DNA of 40,402 bases from IMG/VR virus record IMGVR_UViG_3300010334_000110, positions 1-40,402 of that record. One strand, given 5' to 3'. The position numbers and the translations under genes were made by a program. Source of the DNA: a virus. The notes under the pieces were generated by a model. That model was not told the origin of the DNA. It saw nothing but the letters and a program-made list of their open reading frames with translations, and made no database searches. Positions 2,295 through 36,740 of the stretch are shown here, one piece after another; position 1 is the first letter of the stretch, and every line of letters begins with the position of its first letter.

Positions 2295-4832
2295 ATGCCT
2301 GCATGGTCTGATTTTTTTAAGTTGTTCACGTACGCAAGTGAACAAGATCCTTTATCTAAAGCAAAGGACTCAACGCAACTTCAAGGTGCGGGAATAACTC
2401 AACCCGATGCCCTAGGTATCGACTTCGCAGGCTCAAGCTCAGGCATAAGCCCTAATTTAAGAGAGTCTACTGACTTAATCGACACCACCTCTCTTACTAA
2501 CCGTGCAATGAGGTACAAGGAGTACGAAAGACTAAGAAACGTACCAGAGATTGAAATGGCTATGACCGTTTTCTCAGATGAAGCCTGTGTTGTGGGTGAA
2601 ACAAAAATCGCAACACCATTTGGATTTATTTCAATAAAAGAATTGGCTGAAACAAAGGGAGAAGAAAGATTTTTAGTATATTGTTACGACTTTGAAAAGA
2701 ATGATTATACTTTAGGATGGGCTTTTTCGCCTAGACTCGTAAGAGAGGCGGAAACACTAACAATAATTTTAGACGATGGTTCAACCTTAACTTGTACAAG
2801 CGACCATAAGATCTTGAGAAGAGATGGATCTTGGTGTGAGGCTGGGAAGCTAGAAGAACACGATGAGTTGATGCCATTCTATAGAAAGTCTGCTAATTTC
2901 AGACTTACTAAATTGAAGCAAAAGCAGCATCCAAGAGTATTTACGTTTAAAAAAGGATGGATTCACGAAAGACAGTTTGTAGAAGACTGGAAGTCTGGTC
3001 GAACTGACCCAAAGATAGAGTTAATGAATAAGGCTATGAGAATGATCGGGGCCGGAATCTCAGTTAGGAAAATAGAATCCTCGACAGAAAGAGACTGGCA
3101 CACGATAGAAAACTGGATGCACTCCGAGGGATTTTCTCACAAGGAAACAAAGCAACTTTACAAACAAAGCGATAAAAGAATAATTGTAGGAATTCACAAG
3201 AATGAAAAGAAGCAGCCCGTCTACGACTTATCTGTAGAGAAACATCAATGCTTTGCTACTGATAGTTTAATAGTACATAATTGTCAAAAAGACGAAACGG
3301 GAAGTGTAGTAAAAGTTCTTACTTCAAACGAAGACGTAAAGCAAGAAGTAGAGTTTTTGTTGCTTCACAGGAAGATGATTAATTTGAATAGAACCGCATG
3401 GAGTCTATTCAAAAGCTTATGCATTTTTGGAGACCTTTTTTTAGAGACAGTAATAAATCCAGATAATCCCAAGGAAGGCATATACAAGACGGTTCCACTT
3501 CCACCCGAAACCATGTACAGAATAGAAACGGTAAAGGGTAAGCTTATAGAATTTCAGCAGTCAAAAGAGGGACCAGATTATCAAGCTATAATTAGAGGTC
3601 CAGCACATGATCTAGACTCAAAAGAAGCACAAGGGACTGCTATACGTTTTTCTCCTAGTCAAATAATTCACATGAGGATAGGAGATGATAGAAAAACATT
3701 TTACCCTTACGGTCAGTCTTTGATAGAACCAGCTCGTGGTCCTGCCCACAGCTTAAGACTTTTAGAAGATGCAATGGTAATATACAGATTGACTAGAGCT
3801 CCTGAAAGAAGAGTATTTTATATCGATGTAGGACAGCTTCCACCGTTTAAAGCAGAAGCATTCCTAGACAGAATAAAAGACCAGTTTAGAAAGCGTAAGG
3901 TGGCAAGCAACCGTAGTACGGGAGCCAATCAAGTAGACGAAAGATGGCAGCCTCCTGCTCAAGACGAAGACTTTTGGCTTCCAACCCGTCCAAACAGTAA
4001 TACAAGAATAGAAACACTTCCAGGAGCTGAAAACCTTGGAGAAATAGACGATGCAATATATTTTAGAAACAAGCTATTAACCGCATTGAACTTTCCCAAA
4101 AACTATTTTAACAATGAAGATCCAAACACAACAAGAATTTCATTGTCTGCTCAAGACGTAAAGTTTGCTAGGATGATAGAGAGGTTACAAAGCAACTTTG
4201 AAGATGGCATCTTAGAGCTAGCAGAGCGACATTTGAAATTAAGAGGCTTCCCTGAAAGTACCTTTCAAGATCTTAAAATAAGAATGACCGCTCCAAGTGA
4301 TTGGAGAGAGTTGTCTAGGTCAGAAGTTACCACAGCAAGATACGGTAATGCTGGCACCTTGAAAAGCAGCCAACTTATGTCTGACTTTGATATAATGACA
4401 AAAATACTTAAATACGGAGAAGAAGAGACAGAAGAGATGCTTGCTAGACTGAAGCTACAAAAGTTAGAGGATCTAAAGCTTCAAGTTCTTGCACAGAACC
4501 CACAACTTCTTGGCGTAGGAATACCAGGCCAAGGAGACCAAGGGCAAGAAGTCGGAGCCGGACCTGAAGGTCCGAATAACATGATTAATCCAGACGAAGC
4601 CGGTTCCCCAGAATCAGGATCGGAATCAACTGGGCAAGAGCAACCTGTTGCTGATCAATTATCAGGAAACGAGCCATCGGACCAAAACGTACAAGGTCCT
4701 GATCAATCGGCACAACCAGTTTCATTAGAAGATCCAACCGATGACGATATTAAGAAGTACGATTTGGAACTTCAGGGATATGAATCAGAACAAGATGTCG
4801 AAGACATAGACTACAGCGTAGGTGAAGGTTGA
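2295..4832 (+). CDS. 20: Portal protein (gp20-like) interrupted by an intein
   Basis: The 845-residue product minus a 232-residue intein (98-329) gives a 613-residue portal, longer than T4 gp20 (about 524). Portal features: RYKEYERLRNVPEIEMAMTVFSDEA at the intein insertion point, the later FGDLFLE, PLPPETMYRIE and IIHMRIGDD segments, RAPERRVFYIDVGQLPPFKAE, and LNFPKNYFNNEDPNTTRISLSAQDVKFARMIERLQ, typical of myovirus portals. A Gln/Gly/Pro-rich linker and acidic C-terminus follow. The portal forms the dodecameric ring at the unique vertex and starts head assembly. It heads the order portal, core, protease, scaffold, capsid, as in T4 20-67-68-21-22-23. Because Cys98 must be spliced out, active portal depends on intein excision. 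Confidence 0.9.
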   Translation: MPAWSDFFKLFTYASEQDPLSKAKDSTQLQGAGITQPDALGIDFAGSSSGISPNLRESTDLIDTTSLTNRAMRYKEYERLRNVPEIEMAMTVFSDEACVVGETKIATPFGFISIKELAETKGEERFLVYCYDFEKNDYTLGWAFSPRLVREAETLTIILDDGSTLTCTSDHKILRRDGSWCEAGKLEEHDELMPFYRKSANFRLTKLKQKQHPRVFTFKKGWIHERQFVEDWKSGRTDPKIELMNKAMRMIGAGISVRKIESSTERDWHTIENWMHSEGFSHKETKQLYKQSDKRIIVGIHKNEKKQPVYDLSVEKHQCFATDSLIVHNCQKDETGSVVKVLTSNEDVKQEVEFLLLHRKMINLNRTAWSLFKSLCIFGDLFLETVINPDNPKEGIYKTVPLPPETMYRIETVKGKLIEFQQSKEGPDYQAIIRGPAHDLDSKEAQGTAIRFSPSQIIHMRIGDDRKTFYPYGQSLIEPARGPAHSLRLLEDAMVIYRLTRAPERRVFYIDVGQLPPFKAEAFLDRIKDQFRKRKVASNRSTGANQVDERWQPPAQDEDFWLPTRPNSNTRIETLPGAENLGEIDDAIYFRNKLLTALNFPKNYFNNEDPNTTRISLSAQDVKFARMIERLQSNFEDGILELAERHLKLRGFPESTFQDLKIRMTAPSDWRELSRSEVTTARYGNAGTLKSSQLMSDFDIMTKILKYGEEETEEMLARLKLQKLEDLKLQVLAQNPQLLGVGIPGQGDQGQEVGAGPEGPNNMINPDEAGSPESGSESTGQEQPVADQLSGNEPSDQNVQGPDQSAQPVSLEDPTDDDIKKYDLELQGYESEQDVEDIDYSVGEG
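2586..3281 (+). other. In-frame intein in the portal gene
   Basis: Residues 98-329 of the portal reading frame. Block A begins at Cys98 (CVVGETKIATPFG). Block B has the TxxH motif, T168-S-D-H171. Blocks F and G are VYDLSVEKHQCFATDSLIVHN ending His328-Asn329, followed by Cys330 as the +1 nucleophile. All residues needed for class 1 protein splicing are present. Between the splicing halves, residues about 200-295 show no LAGLIDADG or HNH motif; instead GAGISVRKIESSTERDWHTIENWM reads like a helix-turn-helix DNA-binding unit. Splicing would join SDEA to CQKDE in the extein. Confidence 0.9.
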
Positions 4833-13608: not shown

Positions 13609-13624
13609 AATTGATCAAACTAAG

Positions 13625-13697
13625 TGGAGAATAAGGGATTTGAACCCATAACCCCCGCCATGCAAAGGCGATGCTCTCCCAATTGAGCTAATTCCCC
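13625..13697 (-). tRNA. tRNA-Ala (anticodon TGC)
   Basis: A 73-nt cloverleaf on the - strand. The acceptor GGGGAAT/ATTCTCC pairs over 7 bp with one G-U. The D-arm is AGCTCAATTGGGAGAGC. The anticodon arm is TCGCC-TTTGCAT-GGCGG with TGC in the loop, and the T-arm contains GGTTCAAATCC. The discriminator is A, as expected for alanine. CCA is not encoded. It stands in a non-coding gap between the glycosyltransferase and the lipoprotein gene. Confidence 0.95.
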
Positions 13698-15130: not shown

Positions 15131-15183
15131 TAAAGTGCCTCCTGCTTATTGTAGTATTTCTTTTGCCTTTAATAAATACCTGT

Positions 15184-16041
15184 ATGGGAAAAACAGCTAT
15201 TGCAATTAGAGGGCACGAACGCGGTGCCATGACAGACAATGAATTTTCAAATGTTATATTTGAATTGTCAAATAAATATGACGTTGATATATTTTTGCAT
15301 ACATGGAATTTTAGCGAAGCTTCTTATAGCTGGAGAACAGTTCCCGATGAAAGATTTCACATAACTGAAGAGAAAGTAAAAAGCTACTTTTATAGAAATG
15401 AAATAAAGAAGATATTCGTAGAGGATGATGAAGAAATCGAATTGCACGGCAGAACCCTTGGCAAACTGGGCATAGTTACGGAGATTGCTATTCATCCCCA
15501 TGATTTGACTAGAATTTTGCTCAGTGATTTAGGAAGTTGGGCCAAAAGGTGGGACTTAAGTCTTTTGTCTGCTAATCGTGAAAAAATATTTTGTTTTCTT
15601 CAATATGGTTGTCCAATACTTCCATGGAAAAGAATGTGGCACGGAATATACACAGTTGTAAAGTTTATTAACGAATATGACAAATATGATCTTGTGCTCA
15701 ATATAAGATTTGATATACTAAGATACAAAAGGTTGTTTAATCCCGGTTCGCCTTTGGTTAACTTTGAAGTTATAGACAAAATGCTGATGGAGTCCAAACC
15801 TGGCAACATTTTTACTTTTAATCGCCCAAGAAAGAGCTCTTGTATAGATAACATTTATACCGCTGAACCGGTTCCACTCCTGATGCTATGTCAGCGTTTT
15901 CATTTTAATTTAGATGATTTACTTGAGTCTTATAGTCCTGAAGACTGGAATGCTATCCAAGAGCATTTGGTGTTCTTAGAAGCACAAAGAATTAAAGAAG
16001 CTATAAAAAATAAAAGCTTTGATCCCACTTATTTTTTATGA
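15184..16041 (+). CDS. Glycosyltransferase-like protein
   Basis: A 285-residue protein from the ATG at 15184 (upstream in-frame TTG at 15163 is less likely). The N-terminus MGKTAIAIRGHERGA...YDVDIFLHTW resembles a group of viral and bacterial glycosyltransferase-like proteins that open with a strand, RGxxR and DVFxHTW. Later YDLVLNIRFDILRYK provides the strand plus RxD element of the same group, and IFTFNRPRKSSCIDN follows. It has no Shine-Dalgarno sequence; AATAAATA ends exactly five bases before the ATG, so it may be a leaderless late gene. Its stop overlaps the RNA ligase start (ATGA). Donor and acceptor are unknown. Confidence 0.5.
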   Translation: MGKTAIAIRGHERGAMTDNEFSNVIFELSNKYDVDIFLHTWNFSEASYSWRTVPDERFHITEEKVKSYFYRNEIKKIFVEDDEEIELHGRTLGKLGIVTEIAIHPHDLTRILLSDLGSWAKRWDLSLLSANREKIFCFLQYGCPILPWKRMWHGIYTVVKFINEYDKYDLVLNIRFDILRYKRLFNPGSPLVNFEVIDKMLMESKPGNIFTFNRPRKSSCIDNIYTAEPVPLLMLCQRFHFNLDDLLESYSPEDWNAIQEHLVFLEAQRIKEAIKNKSFDPTYFL

Positions 16042-17036
16042 AAATAGATATCGAAACTTTAAATCGTTATTACGAAGATGGCCTAGTTTCTAAGAACGAA
16101 CATCCAGAGTTCCCTTTGCTTATCTGGAATTACACGCCAAAAACTCAGTATGAAAGATTATGGGACGACATAACCCTCACATGCAGAGCCTTAGTCACTG
16201 ATTTTTATGGCAATGTTGTAGCAAAAAGTTTTGATAAGTTCTTTAACATTGAAGAAGAATCTATTCTTCCCAACGAGTCTTTTGAAGTATACGAGAAATT
16301 AGATGGATCTCTTATAACTATATTTTGGTTTAGAGATCGGTTTGTTGTTGCTTCTAGGGGTTCCTTTTTTAGTGACCATGCCAAAGAAGCACAAGTTCTT
16401 CTAAATGAATATGATACAAATTGTCTGGATAAAACAAAGTCTTATTCTTTTGAATTAATTGTACCTTGGAATAGAATAGTTTGTAATTATGGTTTTGATC
16501 GTAAGTTGGTTCTCTTGGCTAAGTTTGATGCTGACGGGAATGAATACGATATATCCAAATATAGCCCCTTTTTCACTGTTCCTAAAGTTTTTAATTTTCA
16601 AAATCTTAGTTCCATCAAAAACGTAATTCCTAAAAACGAAGAGGGCTATGTCATAAAGTTTGAAAAAGGAAAGAGGGTAAAGGTAAAAAGCGAATGGTAC
16701 GTTAATGCCCACAGACTGGTTTCTAGTGTTTCTGAAAAATTCATTTTAGAAATTTTGTCCTCCGGCGACACTGCGAATCTTTCCTGTACCTTTGCCCTGT
16801 TGCCGGACGAGGTTTGTGTTTGGGCCGAAGAGACTAAGACTAAATTTGAAAATAGATTTAATCAAATACTTTGTGAATGTAAAAACTCATTTAAGTCCTT
16901 TCCATCCAGAAAAGAGTCAGCTGCCTATTTTAACACTCAAAATTATCCTCATTTATTGTTTGCAATGTTGGACAATCAAAGTATAGATGATATGATATGG
17001 AAAATCATTAGATCGGAGATAAAAAGTGAACTATAA
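16038..17036 (+). CDS. rnlA: T4 Rnl1-type RNA ligase
   Basis: A 332-residue ATP-dependent RNA ligase (T4 Rnl1 is 374). The nucleotidyltransferase lysine is K87 in YEKLDGS (motif I KxDG). Upstream CRALVTDFYGNVVAKSFDKFFN (49-70) is the Rnl1-family signature. Motif IIIa-like SYSFELIVPWNRIV (135-148), motif IV EGYVIKF (202-208) and motif V VKVKSEWYV (214-222) complete the catalytic core, and a helical C-terminal domain follows. In T4 the enzyme reseals tRNA cut by host anticodon nucleases, countering a defence. Here it overlaps a deaminase-like gene by 11 bases, suggesting linked functions in RNA repair. Start overlaps the previous stop. Confidence 0.9.
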   Translation: MKIDIETLNRYYEDGLVSKNEHPEFPLLIWNYTPKTQYERLWDDITLTCRALVTDFYGNVVAKSFDKFFNIEEESILPNESFEVYEKLDGSLITIFWFRDRFVVASRGSFFSDHAKEAQVLLNEYDTNCLDKTKSYSFELIVPWNRIVCNYGFDRKLVLLAKFDADGNEYDISKYSPFFTVPKVFNFQNLSSIKNVIPKNEEGYVIKFEKGKRVKVKSEWYVNAHRLVSSVSEKFILEILSSGDTANLSCTFALLPDEVCVWAEETKTKFENRFNQILCECKNSFKSFPSRKESAAYFNTQNYPHLLFAMLDNQSIDDMIWKIIRSEIKSEL

Positions 17037-18867: not shown

Positions 18868-19030
18868 AGAATGGTTAAACGCACAGTTTAAATCAGAAGG
18901 CTTTGTAAGCAAAGGGAAGGCTCAGAACAGCCTTTTTAGACCAGGCCCCAGAGACATTAAACCAAAGCCAAGAGACGTTAAATTATGTGGCACTGCTGGT
19001 GGTCCAGGACCATGCCAAAGCGGCTCATAA
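18854..19030 (+). CDS. Short basic protein with capsid-targeting-like leader
   Basis: The ATG at 18854 gives 58 residues starting MIKFKEWLNAQFKSEGF, again MxxFxxWL then an acidic end, followed by a basic Pro/Gly-rich tail (FRPGPRDIKPKPRDVKLCGTAGGPGPCQ). An ATG 18 bases upstream is in frame but removes the leader resemblance. It overlaps the previous gene and the convergent glycosyltransferase. A possible small DNA-associated internal protein; the gene call itself is moderate because of the overlaps and weak ribosome site. Confidence 0.45.
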   Translation: MIKFKEWLNAQFKSEGFVSKGKAQNSLFRPGPRDIKPKPRDVKLCGTAGGPGPCQSGS

Positions 19031-20290
19031 TTTGGTTTCTAGTTTACTTAGCCAACCTCTGGACTTGCTATAAGGCCATATTGTGCAACTTTTTGGTTGG
19101 CTTTTTACATTAAGAGTTACTTCTTTACTCAGCTTTTTAAACAGTAAGATATCTTTATCTTTTTCTTCTGTAAAGTCTTTTCTATATATTTCTTGGCCTT
19201 CCTCATCGTGGAAGCCAAAGTACCAAAAAGAGTAATCATCTGCGTACTCTATTTCTTCTTTAGTCCATGAAACCTCTAACGAGTACTCTGTTAGTTCTTC
19301 TGGTTTCTTCTGTCCCTCCATCTCCTTCTTCCAATCTTCTTCGGTTATTTCACCTTCGAAAGGTGGTGCTCCCTTTGGGATTGCTGGATGCAGTAATTTT
19401 TGAGAAAAGTCTACGCCTGTATAAATTTGATACTGGCTTAAAGTTTTTTCTTTTCCAAGTTCAAACTCGCCCAGGTCTACGCCAGAGTCTTCTATGCCTA
19501 GAAGTTGCTTTACTCTTTTCTTGCTTATTTCGTCTCTTTCCCACCAAGCAAGTTCTATTGTGCCCTTTTCCTTAAGATCATTGGTGTGATCTAGCCAATG
19601 TTTCTTTCTTTTATCTCTGGTGTACTCATGCCAAATTACATTTTTATTGGGATGCAATAGCTTGTACCCCATTGTAAAGCAGCGTGCACTTAATGATATG
19701 TCTGTTCCTTCAAAATATATTTCTGGATCATACTTGTATTCTTCGCAGAATGATCCTCTTGTAAACATAAAATGACCGCAAGCAAATCTAGCTGGGATGG
19801 GTTTGTCCACTTTATCCCATTGCATATAATCCGGTCTTAATACGGGCATATCGTTTTCATCGAACCCGGCTATACCCATTCGATAGGGCTCTATATTAAG
19901 TTTTTCTCCAGTAGATGCTCGATACGCACCAGCGAATGAACTTAATATAGGCTTTTCTTCTCCTGATGCCTCGATCATATTGATTAACAACTCATCCCAA
20001 TTCTTTTCAAACCTGTGATGAGAGTCAATCTGTAGCGTGAATTCTTCTCCATCATAAAGTTTTTGAGTTTGAGACTTTGCCCAACCTATTCCTTTGCTTT
20101 CTGTCCAATTTACGTCTATTATTTTAAACTTAGGGTTTATTAAGAACTCTTGTAGATCTTCTTTATCATCATGCTGCCAACAAATACCAAAACTTAGATC
20201 ATTTGGTCTTTTTGCTTTTTTGATGCAGTCAACTATTGTTGGTTTTAGTTCTGGATCTCTGTACGACGTAATTTGTACGAATATTCTCAT
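19025..20290 (-). CDS. GlcNAc-transferase-like glycosyltransferase with C-terminal extension
   Basis: A 421-residue protein. It opens MRIFVQITSYRDPELKPTI and has LSFGICWQHDD (32-42), DSHHRF (89-94, metal and nucleotide-sugar site), GAYRAS, ARFACGHFMFTRGSFCEEYKYDPEIYFEGTDISLSARCFTMGY and HPNKNVIWHEYTR. These are the hallmarks of the GlcNAc-transferase family that modifies a cytosolic protein in slime mould and occurs in phages and giant viruses. Residues from about 300 form a separate C-terminal domain (beta-rich, with SLEVSWTKEEIEYADDYSFWYFG) not part of the enzyme. It is last in a three-gene virion unit with overlapping start (ATGA). It may glycosylate a virion protein made alongside it. Confidence 0.8.
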   Translation of the reverse strand: MRIFVQITSYRDPELKPTIVDCIKKAKRPNDLSFGICWQHDDKEDLQEFLINPKFKIIDVNWTESKGIGWAKSQTQKLYDGEEFTLQIDSHHRFEKNWDELLINMIEASGEEKPILSSFAGAYRASTGEKLNIEPYRMGIAGFDENDMPVLRPDYMQWDKVDKPIPARFACGHFMFTRGSFCEEYKYDPEIYFEGTDISLSARCFTMGYKLLHPNKNVIWHEYTRDKRKKHWLDHTNDLKEKGTIELAWWERDEISKKRVKQLLGIEDSGVDLGEFELGKEKTLSQYQIYTGVDFSQKLLHPAIPKGAPPFEGEITEEDWKKEMEGQKKPEELTEYSLEVSWTKEEIEYADDYSFWYFGFHDEEGQEIYRKDFTEEKDKDILLFKKLSKEVTLNVKSQPKSCTIWPYSKSRGWLSKLETKL

Positions 20291-21027
20291 TCATGCACCT
20301 GTAGTGAACTTTTTTCTGATAAAAACACATTCTCGCCAAACGCAAGCTCAAACCATATATTGTATATCCCTACGTCCATATTAGTAGTGTCTATAAAATA
20401 ATAGGCGTACATCTTTTCTCTGTAATCCACGAGTTGCCGATCTACTATTAAACGTAAGTCCTGCTCGGTGGGGACACAATCTCCACAAGCAATTTCTATC
20501 GATACTCTTAAATCTGAGACTATGGCAAGGTTTTCGTAGTAGTTTTGTACATCGGCACCTCGTGGTACATTTGGAGATACCTGTATTAGAAGGTATCTCT
20601 TTGTTCCTTTTCTAATTCTGTTTGGTCTAAAGTTAAAATTAAAGTCATATATTGGTGGTATAGAGGTTGTGAACCAAAGGTCTGGGTATATCTTAAAGTT
20701 GTTGGATATTGTCGCTGTACATAGATCATTATCCTCAAATTTAACAGTCCATTTGTCTACATAATCCCCTATAACATATAGAGGATCCTCAGCAGTGATG
20801 GTCAACAAATATTGACCTGTGTCTTCTTTTGTTACATCTGTCCCGTTTAATATCTGAATCAGCCTTAAACCTTGAGGATTTTCCTGCGACCTCTCTTGAG
20901 GATCTAATACATAAATCTCTACTTTTTCTATTTCTTTTACGTCTGTTCTGTTGTTACTGTTATAAGTAAACAACCTTAGATTTATTTCGTCCCCAACTGC
21001 TGGATTTTGATATCTTTCTTTGGACAT
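20287..21027 (-). CDS. Virion structural protein with Ig-like N-terminal region
   Basis: A 246-residue protein, almost all beta. Residues 10-115 read like an Ig-like sandwich (VGDEINLRLFTYNSN, EKVEIYVLDPQE, TGQYLLTITAEDPLYVIGDYVDKWTVKFED), and the second half (YDFNFNFRPNRIRKGTKRYLLIQVSPNVPRG, SIEIACGDCVPTEQDLRLIVD, YAYYFIDTTNMDVGIYNIWFEL) is a second beta domain. It reminds me of an unnamed T4-like virion protein next to the gp26-type gene. Its ribosome site (AGGAGAAAG) lies within the end of the frameshifted extension three bases upstream, so they are coupled. Probably baseplate or neck; exact role unknown. Confidence 0.6.
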   Translation of the reverse strand: MSKERYQNPAVGDEINLRLFTYNSNNRTDVKEIEKVEIYVLDPQERSQENPQGLRLIQILNGTDVTKEDTGQYLLTITAEDPLYVIGDYVDKWTVKFEDNDLCTATISNNFKIYPDLWFTTSIPPIYDFNFNFRPNRIRKGTKRYLLIQVSPNVPRGADVQNYYENLAIVSDLRVSIEIACGDCVPTEQDLRLIVDRQLVDYREKMYAYYFIDTTNMDVGIYNIWFELAFGENVFLSEKSSLQVHE

Positions 21028-21030
21028 TTA

Positions 21031-21255
21031 CTACTTTCTCCTAGACTGTGCCCGCTTTCTAGCGTTTTCCATCGCTGCGTTTTCACTTTCCTTTTGCTCT
21101 ATAAATCTATCAATCATCCAACGTCGCATGTTTAGCGGAAGACGCATTGACTTCTCCATATCCAAATGTAAGTGGTATTGGAAGAAGAATACTTCTTCTG
21201 CTAGACTTTTCCAGAGCTCTAGACTTGGCTGACTCCCTTCTTGCGACGCGGGAAG
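21031..21255 (-). CDS. Downstream -1 frame extension of the gp26-like gene
   Basis: This open frame has no suitable start of its own at its beginning. It is reached by a -1 slip at the site 21255-21264 and adds 74 residues to residue 349 of the upstream protein, giving a 423-residue fusion. The extension contains LELWKSLAEEVFFFQYHLHL, DMEKSMRLPLNMRRWMIDRF and an EQKESE..MENARKRAQSRRK basic tail: clearly protein-like, helical and conserved-looking. It ends in TAG just before the next gene's ATG. The layout copies the G/GT tail assembly chaperone pair of other tailed phages, where the T part binds the tape measure. An internal ATG (DMEK) could also start a short 42-residue form. Confidence 0.8.
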   Translation of the reverse strand, partial: LPASQEGSQPSLELWKSLAEEVFFFQYHLHLDMEKSMRLPLNMRRWMIDRFIEQKESENAAMENARKRAQSRRK

Positions 21256-22301
21256 AAAAAATTTGCTTCAAGCGGCAAGTCTATCGAGAACTCAGCAAAA
21301 CATGACGGGCAGTTTATAGAAATGTTTGTATCAACGCCAAAAGGTGGTTCGTTAATACAGTTTCTTACATAAGAAACATCGCTTATTGGAAGGCTCTTAA
21401 GCAATATCTGCAATTCATTCTTGTTAGATATGCCATCGATTTCTTCTAAAAGCTCAGCAGTTCTATAGGTTAGAGTATCGTCTGCGGCAGAGTCTCCGAA
21501 GGCCTTTACTCTTCTTTCACGATGATCATTAATATTCTGCTCATCTTGTCCTGTTGACAGTCTATATGAGAATGGCAACTTTGTCGTTGGGAGAGTGTCC
21601 TGGAGTACAGGGCCGTACTCATCGGGGCAACCTTCTACATAAAGTGAATTTAAATCTATTGTGGTGGAGAACTTTGCTTCGCACTCTGGGCACTTTATTT
21701 CAACTTCATATTTTGGACTGTAGGATATACCTCTTAGATAAATTAACAGGAAGGTTCTATCAATTGTTAAGAGACCTTCTGGTCTGAACTGACTGCTTTC
21801 TTTGATGCACTTAGAAAAGATCATGTTAATTGCTTGACCCTTTCTAACAAACCTTGGAGTGGCTAGTATTTGTTCTTCTTCACCGGTCATTGGTCTTATG
21901 TGAAGGACACCATCAGATGGGCCGTTTTCTCCATCATAGAACTTGCCCTTTGAAGGTAGTTGTACTTCCTCATAAACAGCACTAGATCCTTTGATGACCT
22001 CAAGAAGCTCCTTTAAGTGGCCGCTGCTTGCTTCTCTCTTTTCAAAGGAACTCATTTTTGCTTGCTGTGGTCTCTTATTTGTGCTCGTAGTCGTTGGCTC
22101 TTCTACGTTTTGTATTTCGTTTCCGCCTCTTGCCTGCTTTAGTGCTTGTGCAAACTCTGGTGGAACGTTTCCTTGGATGTTAAAGCCGCCAACCTCTGAA
22201 GCCTGTGCTCCGTCTGCACCTTTTCTCATAGATTGTGCTGCTTCCAAATCATTACCTTCTGCGTTATCTGCTCTCTTTGGTCTGAAAGTTTCGTCGGCCA
22301 T
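21219..22301 (-). CDS. gp26/gp51-type baseplate hub assembly protein (0-frame product)
   Basis: A 360-residue protein. The first 100 residues are low-complexity. The core begins EVQLPSKGKFYDGENG, GVLHIRPMTGEEEQILATPRFVRKGQAINMIF and IDRTFLLIYLRGISYSPKYEVEIKCPECEAKFSTTIDL, with a second zinc pair INCPSCFAEFSIDL near the end: the pattern of the T4 baseplate hub assembly family (gp26/gp51). Four Cys in two CPxC pairs bind zinc. The last 11 residues in frame 0 (FPRRKKGVSQV) follow a slippery site, and the -1 frame continues with a good domain, so two products are expected. AAAAGGAGAAAAA precedes the ATG. Confidence 0.8.
   Translation of the reverse strand: MADETFRPKRADNAEGNDLEAAQSMRKGADGAQASEVGGFNIQGNVPPEFAQALKQARGGNEIQNVEEPTTTSTNKRPQQAKMSSFEKREASSGHLKELLEVIKGSSAVYEEVQLPSKGKFYDGENGPSDGVLHIRPMTGEEEQILATPRFVRKGQAINMIFSKCIKESSQFRPEGLLTIDRTFLLIYLRGISYSPKYEVEIKCPECEAKFSTTIDLNSLYVEGCPDEYGPVLQDTLPTTKLPFSYRLSTGQDEQNINDHRERRVKAFGDSAADDTLTYRTAELLEEIDGISNKNELQILLKSLPISDVSYVRNCINEPPFGVDTNISINCPSCFAEFSIDLPLEANFFFPRRKKGVSQV
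21255..21264 (-). other. Programmed -1 frameshift slippery site
   Basis: On the - strand the 0-frame codons are GCA AAT TTT TTC TTC. This contains two overlapping X-XXY-YYZ heptamers: A-AAT-TTT (21264-21258) and T-TTT-TTC (21261-21255). Slippage by -1 re-pairs the tRNAs perfectly or nearly so and opens the 74-residue extension instead of the 0-frame stop 11 codons later. Confidence 0.8.
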
Positions 22302-26478: not shown

Positions 26479-26985
26479 CTACTCTATGTAGGCCCTGTCA
26501 TATCTTAGAGTCAAGTCGCAGGTTAGTATTTCGCTGCTTTGCATATCAAGGTCACCAAACTCTATGTTTTGTGGATAGACGTTTTCATATATCCATGTTT
26601 CTATAACTTTGCCACAACCATCATACAGTTCTAGGGTTGCTCTATCTTTCTTAAACCCTTCACATGAATAAAGGTAGCTCCCTTTCTGTGGGTCATACAG
26701 CTCCTTAATCCATTTCATGACAGGATGTTCAGGTTTTTTAATGTCATACAAAGATAAGGTTATTGGCTTCCAATCCGGCTTACCAGGAAAGTATATGGTC
26801 TCAGATACATGCTGAGCTTCCATTTCTTTAAAGCTTAAGCTTGGACGTGCCGACTTTGAAGGAGGCAATGTGCTTATCCCTTGTGCACTTACTTGTGGGA
26901 TTATTAGAAGCCACCTAAATTTTCTTTTAAAGCACACATCATCATCGCCTAATCCAAAATCCGGACCCATTGTGCTTCTAGCCAT
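26479..26985 (-). CDS. Tail tube-type protein (gp19-like, first paralog)
   Basis: A 168-residue protein of the T4 gp19 type: FKRKFRWLLII, ARPSLSFKEMEAQHVSETIYFPGKPDWKPITLSLYDI, then LELYDGCGKVIETWIYENVYPQNIEFGDLDMQSSEILTCDLTLRYDRAYIE. These blocks match those of the second gp19-like gene in the same order, but without that gene's 30-residue insertion. It lies beyond a strong terminator and has its own ribosome site (TTGGAGATAA), so it is expressed apart from the sheath and main tube. It may be a tube-initiator or baseplate tube protein such as T4 gp48/gp54, or the tube itself. Confidence 0.8.
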   Translation of the reverse strand: MARSTMGPDFGLGDDDVCFKRKFRWLLIIPQVSAQGISTLPPSKSARPSLSFKEMEAQHVSETIYFPGKPDWKPITLSLYDIKKPEHPVMKWIKELYDPQKGSYLYSCEGFKKDRATLELYDGCGKVIETWIYENVYPQNIEFGDLDMQSSEILTCDLTLRYDRAYIE

Positions 26986-27068: not shown

Positions 27069-27686
27069 TCAGCAACCAGCGCAGCAAGGAGTAACGCTTC
27101 CACCACAACGTGGTGTGTACTGTACTTCACTGTAACGCAAGGTTAGCTCTAGTGTAACTTCTTCTGAGGAAGAATAATCTAGCTCACCAAAGTTAACGGC
27201 TTGGGGCCAAACGTGATTTAGCTCCCATGATTCCATCGAAGTTCCGCAACCATCGTATAGGTCTAAGTAAGCAGTAGCTGCGTAACCGTTACCGCCGCCG
27301 CCTCTTTGGCCTTTCTTTGATGATTGTGAATAAGGAACTTGCTGACCTGTGAAATTGTAAGTTGTAGCAAGCCAACTCCACAAGGCTGTTGCTCCCTGAG
27401 CAGTGTCTTGTCCACCTAAGTCGTAGAAGGTAACCGTGATGGTTTCCCAACTCGCCTTACCTGGAATCCACATCTTGCTATTCAAGAAGTTAATTTCAGT
27501 TTCTTCAATTGTCAAATTGGGTCTGGATGCTACTTTCACGAAGAAGGGAGGTATACGACCACCTGAGCAATTTGTCTTTAGCTCGAAGGTCCACCTATAC
27601 TTCCTCTTGAAAACTACATTGTCTCCACCGAGTGCATCCATACCCATGTCATTAAGTCTAGCACCTGGTGCGAAATTATTTGGCAT
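27069..27686 (-). CDS. 19: Tail tube protein (gp19-like) with Cys-rich C-terminus
   Basis: A 205-residue protein with the gp19 blocks VVFKRKYRWTFEL, ASRPNLTIEETEINFLNSKMWIPGKASWETITVTFYDL and LDLYDGCGTSMESWELNHVWPQAVNFGELDYSSSEEVTLELTLRYSEVQY. It lies directly downstream of the sheath gene, as in T4 18-19, so it is the likelier main tube subunit that stacks into the tail's inner tube. Two features are odd: an insertion rich in Gly/Gln/Ser (about 130-145) and a C-terminal CGGSVTPCCAGC with four Cys that may form disulfides or bind metal. AAGGAGAATTAAAAT precedes the ATG. Confidence 0.88.
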   Translation of the reverse strand: MPNNFAPGARLNDMGMDALGGDNVVFKRKYRWTFELKTNCSGGRIPPFFVKVASRPNLTIEETEINFLNSKMWIPGKASWETITVTFYDLGGQDTAQGATALWSWLATTYNFTGQQVPYSQSSKKGQRGGGGNGYAATAYLDLYDGCGTSMESWELNHVWPQAVNFGELDYSSSEEVTLELTLRYSEVQYTPRCGGSVTPCCAGC

Positions 27687-27719: not shown

Positions 27720-30119
27720 TTAGAAGGTTGAGTTTGCGTTCTCCGTAAAACTTCCGGTTCTATGAATTGAGAACTCAATGAACATGAATTCTACTGCACG
27801 GGTTGGCTGTACTCCAATTTGTGCTCTAAACTCATTCCTGTCGATCACGTCAGGTGTGTTCAATTCGTCGTCTGCCTTGATGAAGTAATCGGTAAGACCT
27901 CTTCCTCTCTTTACGTCCTCTAGAATTCCGGCACATATCGATACGAAGGTCTTTCTAAATATATCATCGTTTGGATCGAATAAGAGGCCTCTTACGGCTG
28001 CTCTAATTCTCTTTTCTATGTAGAACATTAGTCTACGAACGTTTACACGGTCTAGAGCTGTTGGTCTACGTTGTAGGGTCTTTTGGCCCCAAACTAAGAA
28101 TCCATCAACATCTACGAACTGTACAATTGGGTTGATGCAATTGCGGTTACCGTACATTAGGTCTCTTTCTGCTAATGTTGGACGGTCGTACACATCAGTA
28201 ACTCCTGGTACTATTCCGCGGTTTAGACCGGCTGGCGCAAACCATGGCTTAGCAAGGAAGTCGCTTCTTGCGATAACAGCAAGGATTGAGCCTGATGGTG
28301 GAACCCATACATCCAATCTGTTGAAGTTATCACGAATCTTAACCCACGGCCAGTATAATGCACCGAAGTCGGAGTCAAATCTGGTGAGGTTAAGAGGATG
28401 CTGTCCGTTCTGCCATGCGATGATTTCCTTAACGGTTAAACCGAATGGAGGATCAACAATTGCCATGCAATCCATTCTGTAATCCTGGCAGAATCTTAGC
28501 ATTTCTGTTACAACTGAAGTGCTTGAGTGACCTGGAACAGCTATTAAATCGATATCGACCTGTTCTGGCTCACTAAGAACGTACAATCCGGTTGAAGCAA
28601 CTGGGCTTCCGATTAGAAGCTCATCTTGACTGTCTGGATCTGATGGTATGCCGTCTGTTCCACCGCTTAGGGTGTAGACGCCAGCTAGAGGGCCAGATGC
28701 AACGTCTGTGTTGTCTACGGCACGGATGTAGTCAGAAACTAGTGACAAATATGTTTCAACATAGTATGAACTTTGGTCATTCTTTGTTACTTGTCCCCAG
28801 CTTTCGACCTGAACACCGTTGTTGTAAACTTCAATGTTGAAGTGATTTTCACGGGAATTGGCGACAATCTTGACCTGAGTCTGATTTCCGTCGATACCAG
28901 CTGAATCAGCTTGTAGTGTGAAGGATACTGTGTTGTCTGTGTTCTCACCGCCTGTTACAACACCAAATGAAGCTGTTGAAACGTCGTCAGTAGAGCCTTC
29001 TGGTGATACACCTGATGCTGTTAATGTTGAAAGTCCAAATGCTTCAGCTGCTGTACTTGTGTACTTGACTCTGAGGCGAGCATCGGCACCGTGTGTTAGA
29101 GTCTTGAATACAAGGGCGTTGCCAACTGTGCTAGCAACCCAACCACCTGGGAGAGTTCCATCCTCTTCGTATCTCTGCTTGTTGATCTCTGTTACGATGT
29201 CTGCTATTGCTGTCTTTGGAGTTCCACCGAGAGATAGAACTGTATTGAGATCTAGAACTTGTAGGACACCGTCAACGTTTACGTTGTCTGTTCCGTCAAC
29301 GATTAGTTCGATTGTCCAATCTGTTGAATTTGGAAGAGTGAACACACCAGCAGATCCACCAGTTGGATATTTGGTTGCTGTTCCGGTTACTGCTGCTTGT
29401 GTCATTCCGGTTCCTAGACCGGTTATGCTTGTGCCGCCGTATCCATAAACTGCATTTTGTACTGATACCAACTCAACTGATGATCCTGGACCGTATGCCC
29501 AAGTTGTTCTTACTCCGATTGGACTGTTATTGTCTGTCTCGTCTGTTAGATAGAATTCGATTCCATCGAGCTCTGTGTCTAGCTGAGCGTTTAGTTCGTC
29601 AACAACGTCTGATACGCTCTTGGCTGCAGCGTCTGCTTCAACCATTAGAGTCTTAGAGTTGAGGACACCATTTAGCTTAAATCTGAAGAAGTAAGCATCA
29701 ACATCAGCGTCTTCGTATGATGTGTCAAAGAGGTAAGGACCGTTTGTTGCTGATTCGATCTTTACAACATCGCCAGCGGCTGGAACAGATACGTTAGCTG
29801 TAAGAGCCTGCTCGTCGCTTACTGGATCTTCATCGCCAACTCTTACAACAAACAATTCGTTTGCTACTAAGAGGTACTGCTGAGCAGCGTATATTAGGTA
29901 TGGGTCGCCCATGTCTGGATGTGGGTTACCAAATACAGTTGCTAATTGTTTTGAATTTTGAATCATGATCGGAAGGTTGAATGGACCTTTAGAAGCGAAT
30001 CCAATCAAACCAGCACGATGTAAACTTTGCTCTGCAACCACGAAGCTTAGATCTTTTTCAGCTATTCTAACGCTTGGGCTGATAGTATTAGAAGGTGGAA
30101 ATCCTCTTAAAATCGCCAT
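27720..30119 (-). CDS. 18: Contractile tail sheath protein (gp18-like)
   Basis: A 799-residue sheath subunit (T4 gp18 is 659). The N-terminus (SPSVRIAEKDLSFVV, HRAGLIGFASKGPFNLPIMIQNSKQLATVFGNP) and the C-terminus (FVDVDGFLVWGQKTLQRRPTALDRVNVRRLMFYIEKRIRAAVRGLLFDPND, LEDVKRGRGLTDYFIKADDELNTPDVIDRNEFRAQIGVQPTRAVEFMFIEFSIHRTG) are the conserved sheath core. The middle (about 110-500) is a series of beta domains larger than in T4, probably exposed on the tail surface. It contracts to drive the tube into the cell. Read with a GGGAG ribosome site; followed by the tube gene. Confidence 0.93.
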   Translation of the reverse strand: MAILRGFPPSNTISPSVRIAEKDLSFVVAEQSLHRAGLIGFASKGPFNLPIMIQNSKQLATVFGNPHPDMGDPYLIYAAQQYLLVANELFVVRVGDEDPVSDEQALTANVSVPAAGDVVKIESATNGPYLFDTSYEDADVDAYFFRFKLNGVLNSKTLMVEADAAAKSVSDVVDELNAQLDTELDGIEFYLTDETDNNSPIGVRTTWAYGPGSSVELVSVQNAVYGYGGTSITGLGTGMTQAAVTGTATKYPTGGSAGVFTLPNSTDWTIELIVDGTDNVNVDGVLQVLDLNTVLSLGGTPKTAIADIVTEINKQRYEEDGTLPGGWVASTVGNALVFKTLTHGADARLRVKYTSTAAEAFGLSTLTASGVSPEGSTDDVSTASFGVVTGGENTDNTVSFTLQADSAGIDGNQTQVKIVANSRENHFNIEVYNNGVQVESWGQVTKNDQSSYYVETYLSLVSDYIRAVDNTDVASGPLAGVYTLSGGTDGIPSDPDSQDELLIGSPVASTGLYVLSEPEQVDIDLIAVPGHSSTSVVTEMLRFCQDYRMDCMAIVDPPFGLTVKEIIAWQNGQHPLNLTRFDSDFGALYWPWVKIRDNFNRLDVWVPPSGSILAVIARSDFLAKPWFAPAGLNRGIVPGVTDVYDRPTLAERDLMYGNRNCINPIVQFVDVDGFLVWGQKTLQRRPTALDRVNVRRLMFYIEKRIRAAVRGLLFDPNDDIFRKTFVSICAGILEDVKRGRGLTDYFIKADDELNTPDVIDRNEFRAQIGVQPTRAVEFMFIEFSIHRTGSFTENANSTF

Positions 30120-35693: not shown

Positions 35694-35742
35694 TTTCATT
35701 TCTTTTCATTTCTTTTCATTTCTTTTCATTTCTTTTCATTTC
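35694..35742 (-). repeat. 10-bp tandem repeat between the actin-like and DUF5659-like genes
   Basis: Four exact copies of TCTTTTCATT (35701-35740) plus partial copies on both sides. On the - strand the unit is AATGAAAAGA, so each copy supplies an ATGA. The actin-like gene stop (TGA, 35736-35738) lies inside the first copy, and an ATG overlaps it. Confidence 0.9.
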
Positions 35743-36740
35743 GCTGCTTCTGCCGCGACCAAGCATCCCCTAGCAACTGAGTATAAGGGGTCAGATGGTC
35801 TAATGATGTTACCAACCTTAATTGGTAGTTCTGTTTCATTAATTATTTCTTTAAACATATCTGAAAAGCCGTTTGGAGAAGATGTTCCGCCTGCTATCAC
35901 GACGTCAACTGGTGCATCCGTTCTTACGGTTTTTGAAATGTCAGCAAATCCTTTTTTGATTCCACCGGCTGTGTGTTCTATCATTAATCTATATTGGGTT
36001 CCAATGGCCCTTTCTACCAATGAAGAGGGTGGCTTTGTAAGATCAATTTTTGTTTTTTCTACGTTTATGTACGCTATTGTTTCGCCTGTTGCTTTTGCGG
36101 CCTGGCGATCTATCCAGTCACCAGAATTTACTATTGAGAAAGAAAACACTGGGTTTCCGTACATGGCATAGCAAACGTTGACCATACCAGCCCCACAGCT
36201 TACTCCTATACCTGTGAACGCTTTGCTGGCTAGCTCTGCGTACACTAAAGCAAGAGCTTCGTTGATGGGATAGGCATTCACTTTGTACCCAGTCTCACTC
36301 TTGTATGCTTTAAATATAGCTTCTAGTATTCTTTGATGATAGTCAGCATCTGTGTCTTGATTAATTGCATTGGCTGGTACGCTGTAATAAAGTGAGTCAC
36401 CATCTTTTTTGATGTCTTCCATCAAACTATGCATCATCACTGACATTATTTGAAATGCATCTTTTTCTTTTGGATTTACGCAACCGTGAATCATTGGCCT
36501 TTTTAATTCGATCTGACTCATGGTGTAAGCCATGTTGACAGCGGCTTCTCCTAGTGCATAAGCTACGTTGTTTCTCTCGATCAACGGCACACCGGCACTT
36601 TTCATCATATTGAATACGAATCTATTCTCTAGTGGTATTTCTAAAAATGCATTTACTTCTCTTTTGTAGGAAAAGTTGTTATCCTCTCCCCTTGTGCAGC
36701 AAACCAAATTGTAGGTACCACAGTCAAAACCAATAGGCAT
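35736..36740 (-). CDS. Actin-like ATPase (ParM/MreB-type)
   Basis: A 334-residue protein with the five-motif actin/Hsp70 fold in order: phosphate 1 GFDCGTYNLV (4-13), a central domain, connect 1 NEALALVYAEL (160-170), phosphate 2 IGVSCGAGMVNVCYA (178-192), and adenosine DVVIAGGTSSPNGF (279-292), then a connect 2-like GCLVAAEA. It is about the size of ParM. Phage actins can segregate or centre phage DNA or position particles in the cell. It is preceded by a small gene whose stop touches its ATG, a natural place for a regulator or adaptor. Ribosome site AAGGAGGTTTAA. Filament formation is inferred from fold only. Confidence 0.8.
   Translation of the reverse strand: MPIGFDCGTYNLVCCTRGEDNNFSYKREVNAFLEIPLENRFVFNMMKSAGVPLIERNNVAYALGEAAVNMAYTMSQIELKRPMIHGCVNPKEKDAFQIMSVMMHSLMEDIKKDGDSLYYSVPANAINQDTDADYHQRILEAIFKAYKSETGYKVNAYPINEALALVYAELASKAFTGIGVSCGAGMVNVCYAMYGNPVFSFSIVNSGDWIDRQAAKATGETIAYINVEKTKIDLTKPPSSLVERAIGTQYRLMIEHTAGGIKKGFADISKTVRTDAPVDVVIAGGTSSPNGFSDMFKEIINETELPIKVGNIIRPSDPLYSVARGCLVAAEAAK

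Follow-up and report, generated by a model that had tools for sequence, protein, structure and literature searches.

The window, by which we mean the whole stretch of 40,402 nucleotides analysed here (IMG/VR record IMGVR_UViG_3300010334_000110), carries T4-type tail genes on its minus strand, and their positions are collected in Table 1 together with the features of the frameshift locus. In the window's clade, the sheath gene comes first and two tube genes follow; inserted glycosyltransferases and further genes separate these from the PF12322 gene, after which lies an unknown gene for a 246-aa protein. The gp19-like tube genes stand in tandem after the sheath gene, and a pair or more of them also occurs in six related records. 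A GlcNAc-type glycosyltransferase is encoded within the tail gene region (19025-20290, minus strand; PF11397, 4e-60), with similar genes in the related loci L001 and L047, while further glycosyltransferase-like genes lie between the tube and chaperone genes, places at which relatives carry different cargo. The 246-aa protein displayed no Pfam or NCBIfam match and, among the 23 loci examined, was not detected in L072 only. In the window's clade, where 22 of 23 loci have the 246-aa gene next, no tape-measure gene was recognised within 4 kb, and the large ORFs tested in two related records of large size did not include one either. Elsewhere, the window encodes a T4-type portal protein (gp20; 2295-4832, plus strand, 845 aa) with an intein splicing domain at residues 113-329 (PF14890, 5e-13), a 334-aa protein (35736-36740, minus strand) matching Volactin, an actin/MreB-like family, at 1.9e-68, and a tRNA-Ala (TGC) gene at 13624-13697 (minus strand).

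Table 1. Features of the frameshift locus and of the neighbouring tail genes in the window.
Feature	Position	Strand	Evidence or remark
Short tail assembly chaperone gene (TAC-N; very probable assignment), PF12322 T4 gp26/gp51 family	21219..22301	-	360 aa, frame 0; Pfam T4_baseplate, phrog_150, IMG/VR relatives
Overlapping slippery heptamers A-AAT-TTT and T-TTT-TTC	21255..21264	-	AAATTTTTTC, phased in the gene's frame
Frame-0 stop codon TAG, ends the short form	21219..21221	-	
-1 frame extension (TAC-C; very probable assignment)	21031..21255	-	74 codons (21255-21034) and TAG (21033-21031)
Unknown gene, 246 aa, next after the chaperone gene	20287..21027	-	48-96% identity, same place in 22/23 loci examined
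gp19-like tail tube protein, the copy closer to the chaperone gene	26479..26985	-	phrog_4542, 7e-25; PF06841, 7e-6, below cut-off
Second tail tube-like protein	27069..27686	-	PF06841, 2.5e-5, below cut-off
Tail sheath protein (gp18-like)	27720..30119	-	PF04984, 8.5e-18; phrog_23, 2e-79

The frame-0 protein matched Pfam T4_baseplate (PF12322) at 7.4e-17 with 62.2 bits, for a cut-off of 24.5, and the 'baseplate hub' family phrog_150 at 1e-19; T4 gp26 and T4 gp51 match PF12322 as well. Near its end the gene reads GCA-AAT-TTT-TTC-TTC around AAATTTTTTC, followed by eleven sense codons before the frame-0 TAG. The -1 frame remains open up to its own TAG, three bases short of the next ATG at 21027, and the fusion amounts to 349 + 74 = 423 aa, with a junction peptide (EANFF|LPASQ, of the LPASQEGSQPSLELWK type) that is identical for slippage at either heptamer. 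The earlier note had described this arrangement, from the two heptamers and the short distance to the frame-0 stop to the length of the -1 frame, its end close to the next gene and the size of the fusion, and every number that was checked proved correct. As a test of chance in the window, its 51 mechanically called ORFs with a length of 100 aa or more were screened for an in-frame heptamer within a -1-open stretch continuing for at least 50 codons past the stop. Only one other ORF passed (15163-16041 / 16038-17036), and it was rejected as a second frameshift case, since the downstream frame there is a normal gene that overlaps the first and starts at an ATG of its own. A chance origin of the window's own heptamers is removed by the conservation of the site in relatives.

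A scan of IMG/VR provided 169 relatives, from which 80 loci were retained at 51-90% identity and dereplicated to 50, the window among them. In each of the 79 loci whose 3' end is intact, the -1 frame stays open over ~60-80 codons beyond the stop. TTT-TTC is found at the site in 50/50 dereplicated loci and the canonical heptamer T-TTT-TTC, with AAT or AGT ahead of TTT-TTC, in 49/50, the single exception being GCC-TTT-TTC; conservation in relatives, a check proposed in the earlier note, came out in favour of the proposal. Note that the loci L076/L077 retain the extension despite a non-canonical CTTTTTC site. Elsewhere in the same 50 genes codon usage is mixed, with TTT:TTC at 345:311 for Phe and AAT:AAC at 534:398 for Asn, whereas at the site TTT (50/50), TTC (50/50) and AAT (44/44) are invariant; these positions are therefore selected as nucleotides and not as residues alone. 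Coding in the -1 frame provides no explanation for the invariant Phe codons, because both are read in frame 0 in both products. On this comparison of sequences, the codon pattern shows selection on the slippery site as such, which stands close to where the gene ends and is followed by an out-of-frame extension.

The extension itself evolves as a protein. Its conserved block reads SLxLWxxLAEEIFFFQYH...MxLPINxRKWMIxRFIxQKE, and S13, E23, F25, F26, Y29, R46, Q56, K57 and E60, among others, are invariant across 33 aligned extensions. Past the frame-0 stop, pN was lower than pS in all 1225 pairs of the 50 loci; the pooled pN/pS in the -1 frame was 0.316 (0.358 for the frame-0 gene), against 1.10 and 1.55 in the other two frames of the same alignment, and the extension is retained even though synonymous sites are near saturation (mean pS 0.86). 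The -1 sequence had been called protein-like in the earlier note, and this purifying selection, confined to the -1 frame, bears the description out and answers the second check proposed there in its favour. Its presence in all relatives points to a long form with a C-terminal domain, for which AlphaFold2 predicted three helices from 33 extensions (mean pLDDT 86.5, >90 across most of the domain). Weak Pfam, NCBIfam and PHROG matches of the extension (ApaG, Tma16 and phrog_20255) were judged to be due to chance, and Foldseek against viral models returned nothing below an E-value of 0.08, with several chaperones among the matches listed. Altogether, these substitution patterns, read from aligned genomes, show that the extension is a genuine protein domain and that -1 is the only frame in which it is translated.

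The gene is very probably the tail assembly chaperone of a T4-type phage, in which programmed -1 frameshifting at AAATTTTTTC yields a short and a long form. Annotators call small ORFs at the place of the extension in SP-15, immuto and Mel-JY01, as would be expected if the extension were a separate small gene, starting in or just after the frame-0 gene and relying on translational coupling, and 28/50 loci do carry some ATG, GTG or TTG ahead of the conserved block. However, these starts vary in position and are mostly TTG, and in the other 22/50 loci, the window included, the -1 frame contains none from the preceding stop up to the conserved EEIFFF block; in the window, one has to pass the most conserved block to reach the first in-frame ATG. 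This makes a separate gene very unlikely, and it would not require the invariant slippery codons. Slippage of the RNA polymerase, rather than of the ribosome, on the T6 run could generate mRNA in the -1 frame and the same or nearly the same frame product, as homopolymers can induce it and the site has six Ts. Six Ts are nevertheless short for transcriptional slippage, the invariant C of T-TTT-TTC interrupts the run, and the canonical tandem-slippage phasing of AAT/AGT-TTT-TTC in 49/50 loci argues for the ribosome, so that we give the polymerase equally little credence. A sequencing or assembly indel in one long gene would be a common kind of homopolymer error, and the extension might also be decaying, but the same frame relation recurs in 79 intact loci from many independent metagenomes and the extension has outlasted the near saturation of its synonymous sites; this reading is already refuted by the comparative data.

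It may also be supposed that frameshifting is real and that the protein is a structural component of the hub rather than a chaperone. T4 gp26 is indeed annotated as 'baseplate hub', and no tape-measure gene adjoins the gene in the window, but T4 gp51 is annotated as a chaperone, and a published reassignment of the family to tail assembly chaperones is cited in PMC12846349 and PMC10885494. In addition, Listeria phage LIS04 and Flavobacterium phage immuto display the order sheath, tube, PF12322 gene and tape measure, in which the PF12322 gene, between tube and tape measure, occupies the position of a tail assembly chaperone; in SP-15, a 3.6-kb 'putative tail protein' gene comes after the chaperone gene. 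Foldseek of the short form (model pLDDT 69) against the PDB gave no significant match, and the HK97 chaperone 2ob9_B had the best TMt among the PDB matches listed, at a non-significant level (TMt 0.45 over 101 columns, E 3.9). A hub component is unlikely on balance, while keeping somewhat more weight than either a separate gene or polymerase slippage.

Under programmed frameshifting of a chaperone gene, most ribosomes would stay in frame 0 and produce the short form of 360 aa, and a minority would slip back one base at AAATTTTTTC and produce the 423-aa long form, in which a helical domain of 74 residues would take the place of residues 350-360. If lambda gpG/gpGT and the T4-type gp26/gp51 are a guide, the long form would be expected to hold the tape-measure protein and the short form to coat it during tube assembly. 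Slippage by the ribosome is inferred with the support of comparative sequence, a ratio of short to long form would go with it, and binding of the tape measure by the extension would be expected from the family. No stimulator of frameshifting was established downstream or upstream: the fold z-score was -0.2 in the window and averaged -1.4 over the 80-nt downstream segments of the relatives, and a Shine-Dalgarno-like motif upstream of the site was found in 9/50 loci only. A 9-bp helix predicted in relatives was rejected as a candidate stimulator, since its covariation is weak and both arms encode conserved residues.

Related phages extend the picture in two directions. LR756511, a 595 kb phage, retains both TTTTTTC and the -1 extension, and in XaC1, XacN1, RAS14 and Atu_ph07 the gene contains T-TTT-TTY close to its end, with the -1 frame open, their extensions being too diverged for a sequence link with the extension profile of the window's clade. 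SP-15, LIS04, GXN1, Mel-JY01, LR756508 and immuto hold the extension in the +1 (or -2) frame. The profile directly matched LR756511 (2e-22), SP-15 (3e-9), Mel-JY01 (3e-8), LIS04 (2e-6) and LR756508 (1e-3), the best of 2000 shuffled decoys scoring 0.1, and the extensions of GXN1 and immuto were found after iteration. A scan of IMG/VR with XacN1 gave no match, and one with SP-15 returned SP-15 itself only. The Mel-JY01 clade comprises 600 or more IMG/VR stretches, and in 58/61 dereplicated members TTTTTTGGCCT (TTT-TTT-TGG-CCT) replaces TTT-TTC; in 55 of these 58, the +1 frame stays open for more than 50 codons. In this clade (L104-L183), TTT-TTT-TGG-CCT at the end of the PF12322 gene may let the ribosome slip by +1 or -2, or the polymerase slip on T7. 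GXN1, LIS04 and SP-15 (L084, L085 and L086) have in common xCC-CGA-TTY just ahead of the frame-0 stop, at the start of the +1 extension, possibly a candidate shift site of another type. The group of SP-15, LIS04, Mel-JY01 and immuto resembles the window in that the chaperone and the extension behind it are both homologous and lie in different frames, and differs in the frame of the extension, +1 (or -2) instead of -1. It is likely that one homologous extension domain is reached by frameshifts that differ in direction: -1 at U6C here and +1 (or -2) elsewhere, at U7GGCC in the Mel-JY01 clade and at other sites in phages of the SP-15 type. The direction would then have switched, with no change in the domain or in its position out of frame.

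Our findings indicate that a large uncultivated T4-type clade, with phages of 200-600 kb among its members, makes its tail chaperones by frameshifting as a rule; annotation names the short gene 'baseplate hub' there and misses the extension. They also support the view of T4 genes 26 and 51 as the split form of a frameshifted ancestor, and the related phages provide a natural series for studying changes in the direction of a programmed frameshift. Published work may be exceeded in two points, namely how large and constant the clade is and the change of direction with a homologous extension.

The closest known systems are those of T4 and its relatives. Vladimirov and colleagues are said to have assigned the short form to T4 gene 26 and the long form to gene 51, and frameshifting was reportedly found by them in several T4-like groups. 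Their identification of the tail assembly chaperones in T4-like phages (Vladimirov, Gautam and Davidson, Virology 2022, 566:9-15) is cited in PMC12846349 and PMC10885494, which also describe -1 sites of the poly-T type in the TAC-N genes of such phages and, in some of them, short and long chaperones as separate genes. T4 gp26 (TAC-N) and gp51 (TAC-NC) belong to the same family, PF12322, as the window's protein, but T4 has two separate genes where the window has one gene with a -1 site, in agreement with the remark of the earlier note that such a layout is not standard in T4. T4 gp26 terminates near the end of the PF12322 domain and gp51 has about 48 further residues; this tail is not significantly similar to the window's extension (hhalign probability 0.2%, no hmmsearch match), the similarity being one by eye alone. 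Six related records of 89-533 kb contain one PF12322 copy each, so that the frameshift is not made superfluous by a duplication of the gp26/gp51 kind.

In lambda, gpG is a short protein and gpGT its frameshifted long form with a C-terminal extension. This pair, described in PMC2147016, is similar in arrangement to the window's locus and differs in its slippery sequence, with no sequence similarity detected. The earlier note had seen the G/GT layout of long-tailed phages here. The lambda layout holds for the conserved site and the out-of-frame extension without its own start, but only in part overall, as no tape-measure gene follows directly in the window's clade. Frameshifting T4-like phages and the Vandenendeviridae/Andersonviridae chaperone loci (phage Adele), as portrayed in PMC12846349, have a poly-T slippery site at the end of TAC-N and a -1 frame open in all members, with the extension annotated as a hypothetical gene or left unannotated; there the site is an invariant GTTTTT and a tape-measure gene lies just downstream, whereas the window has AAATTTTTTC and none adjacent. 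The frameshifted T4-like chaperone is already known as a kind, and the window's gene is a new member of it.
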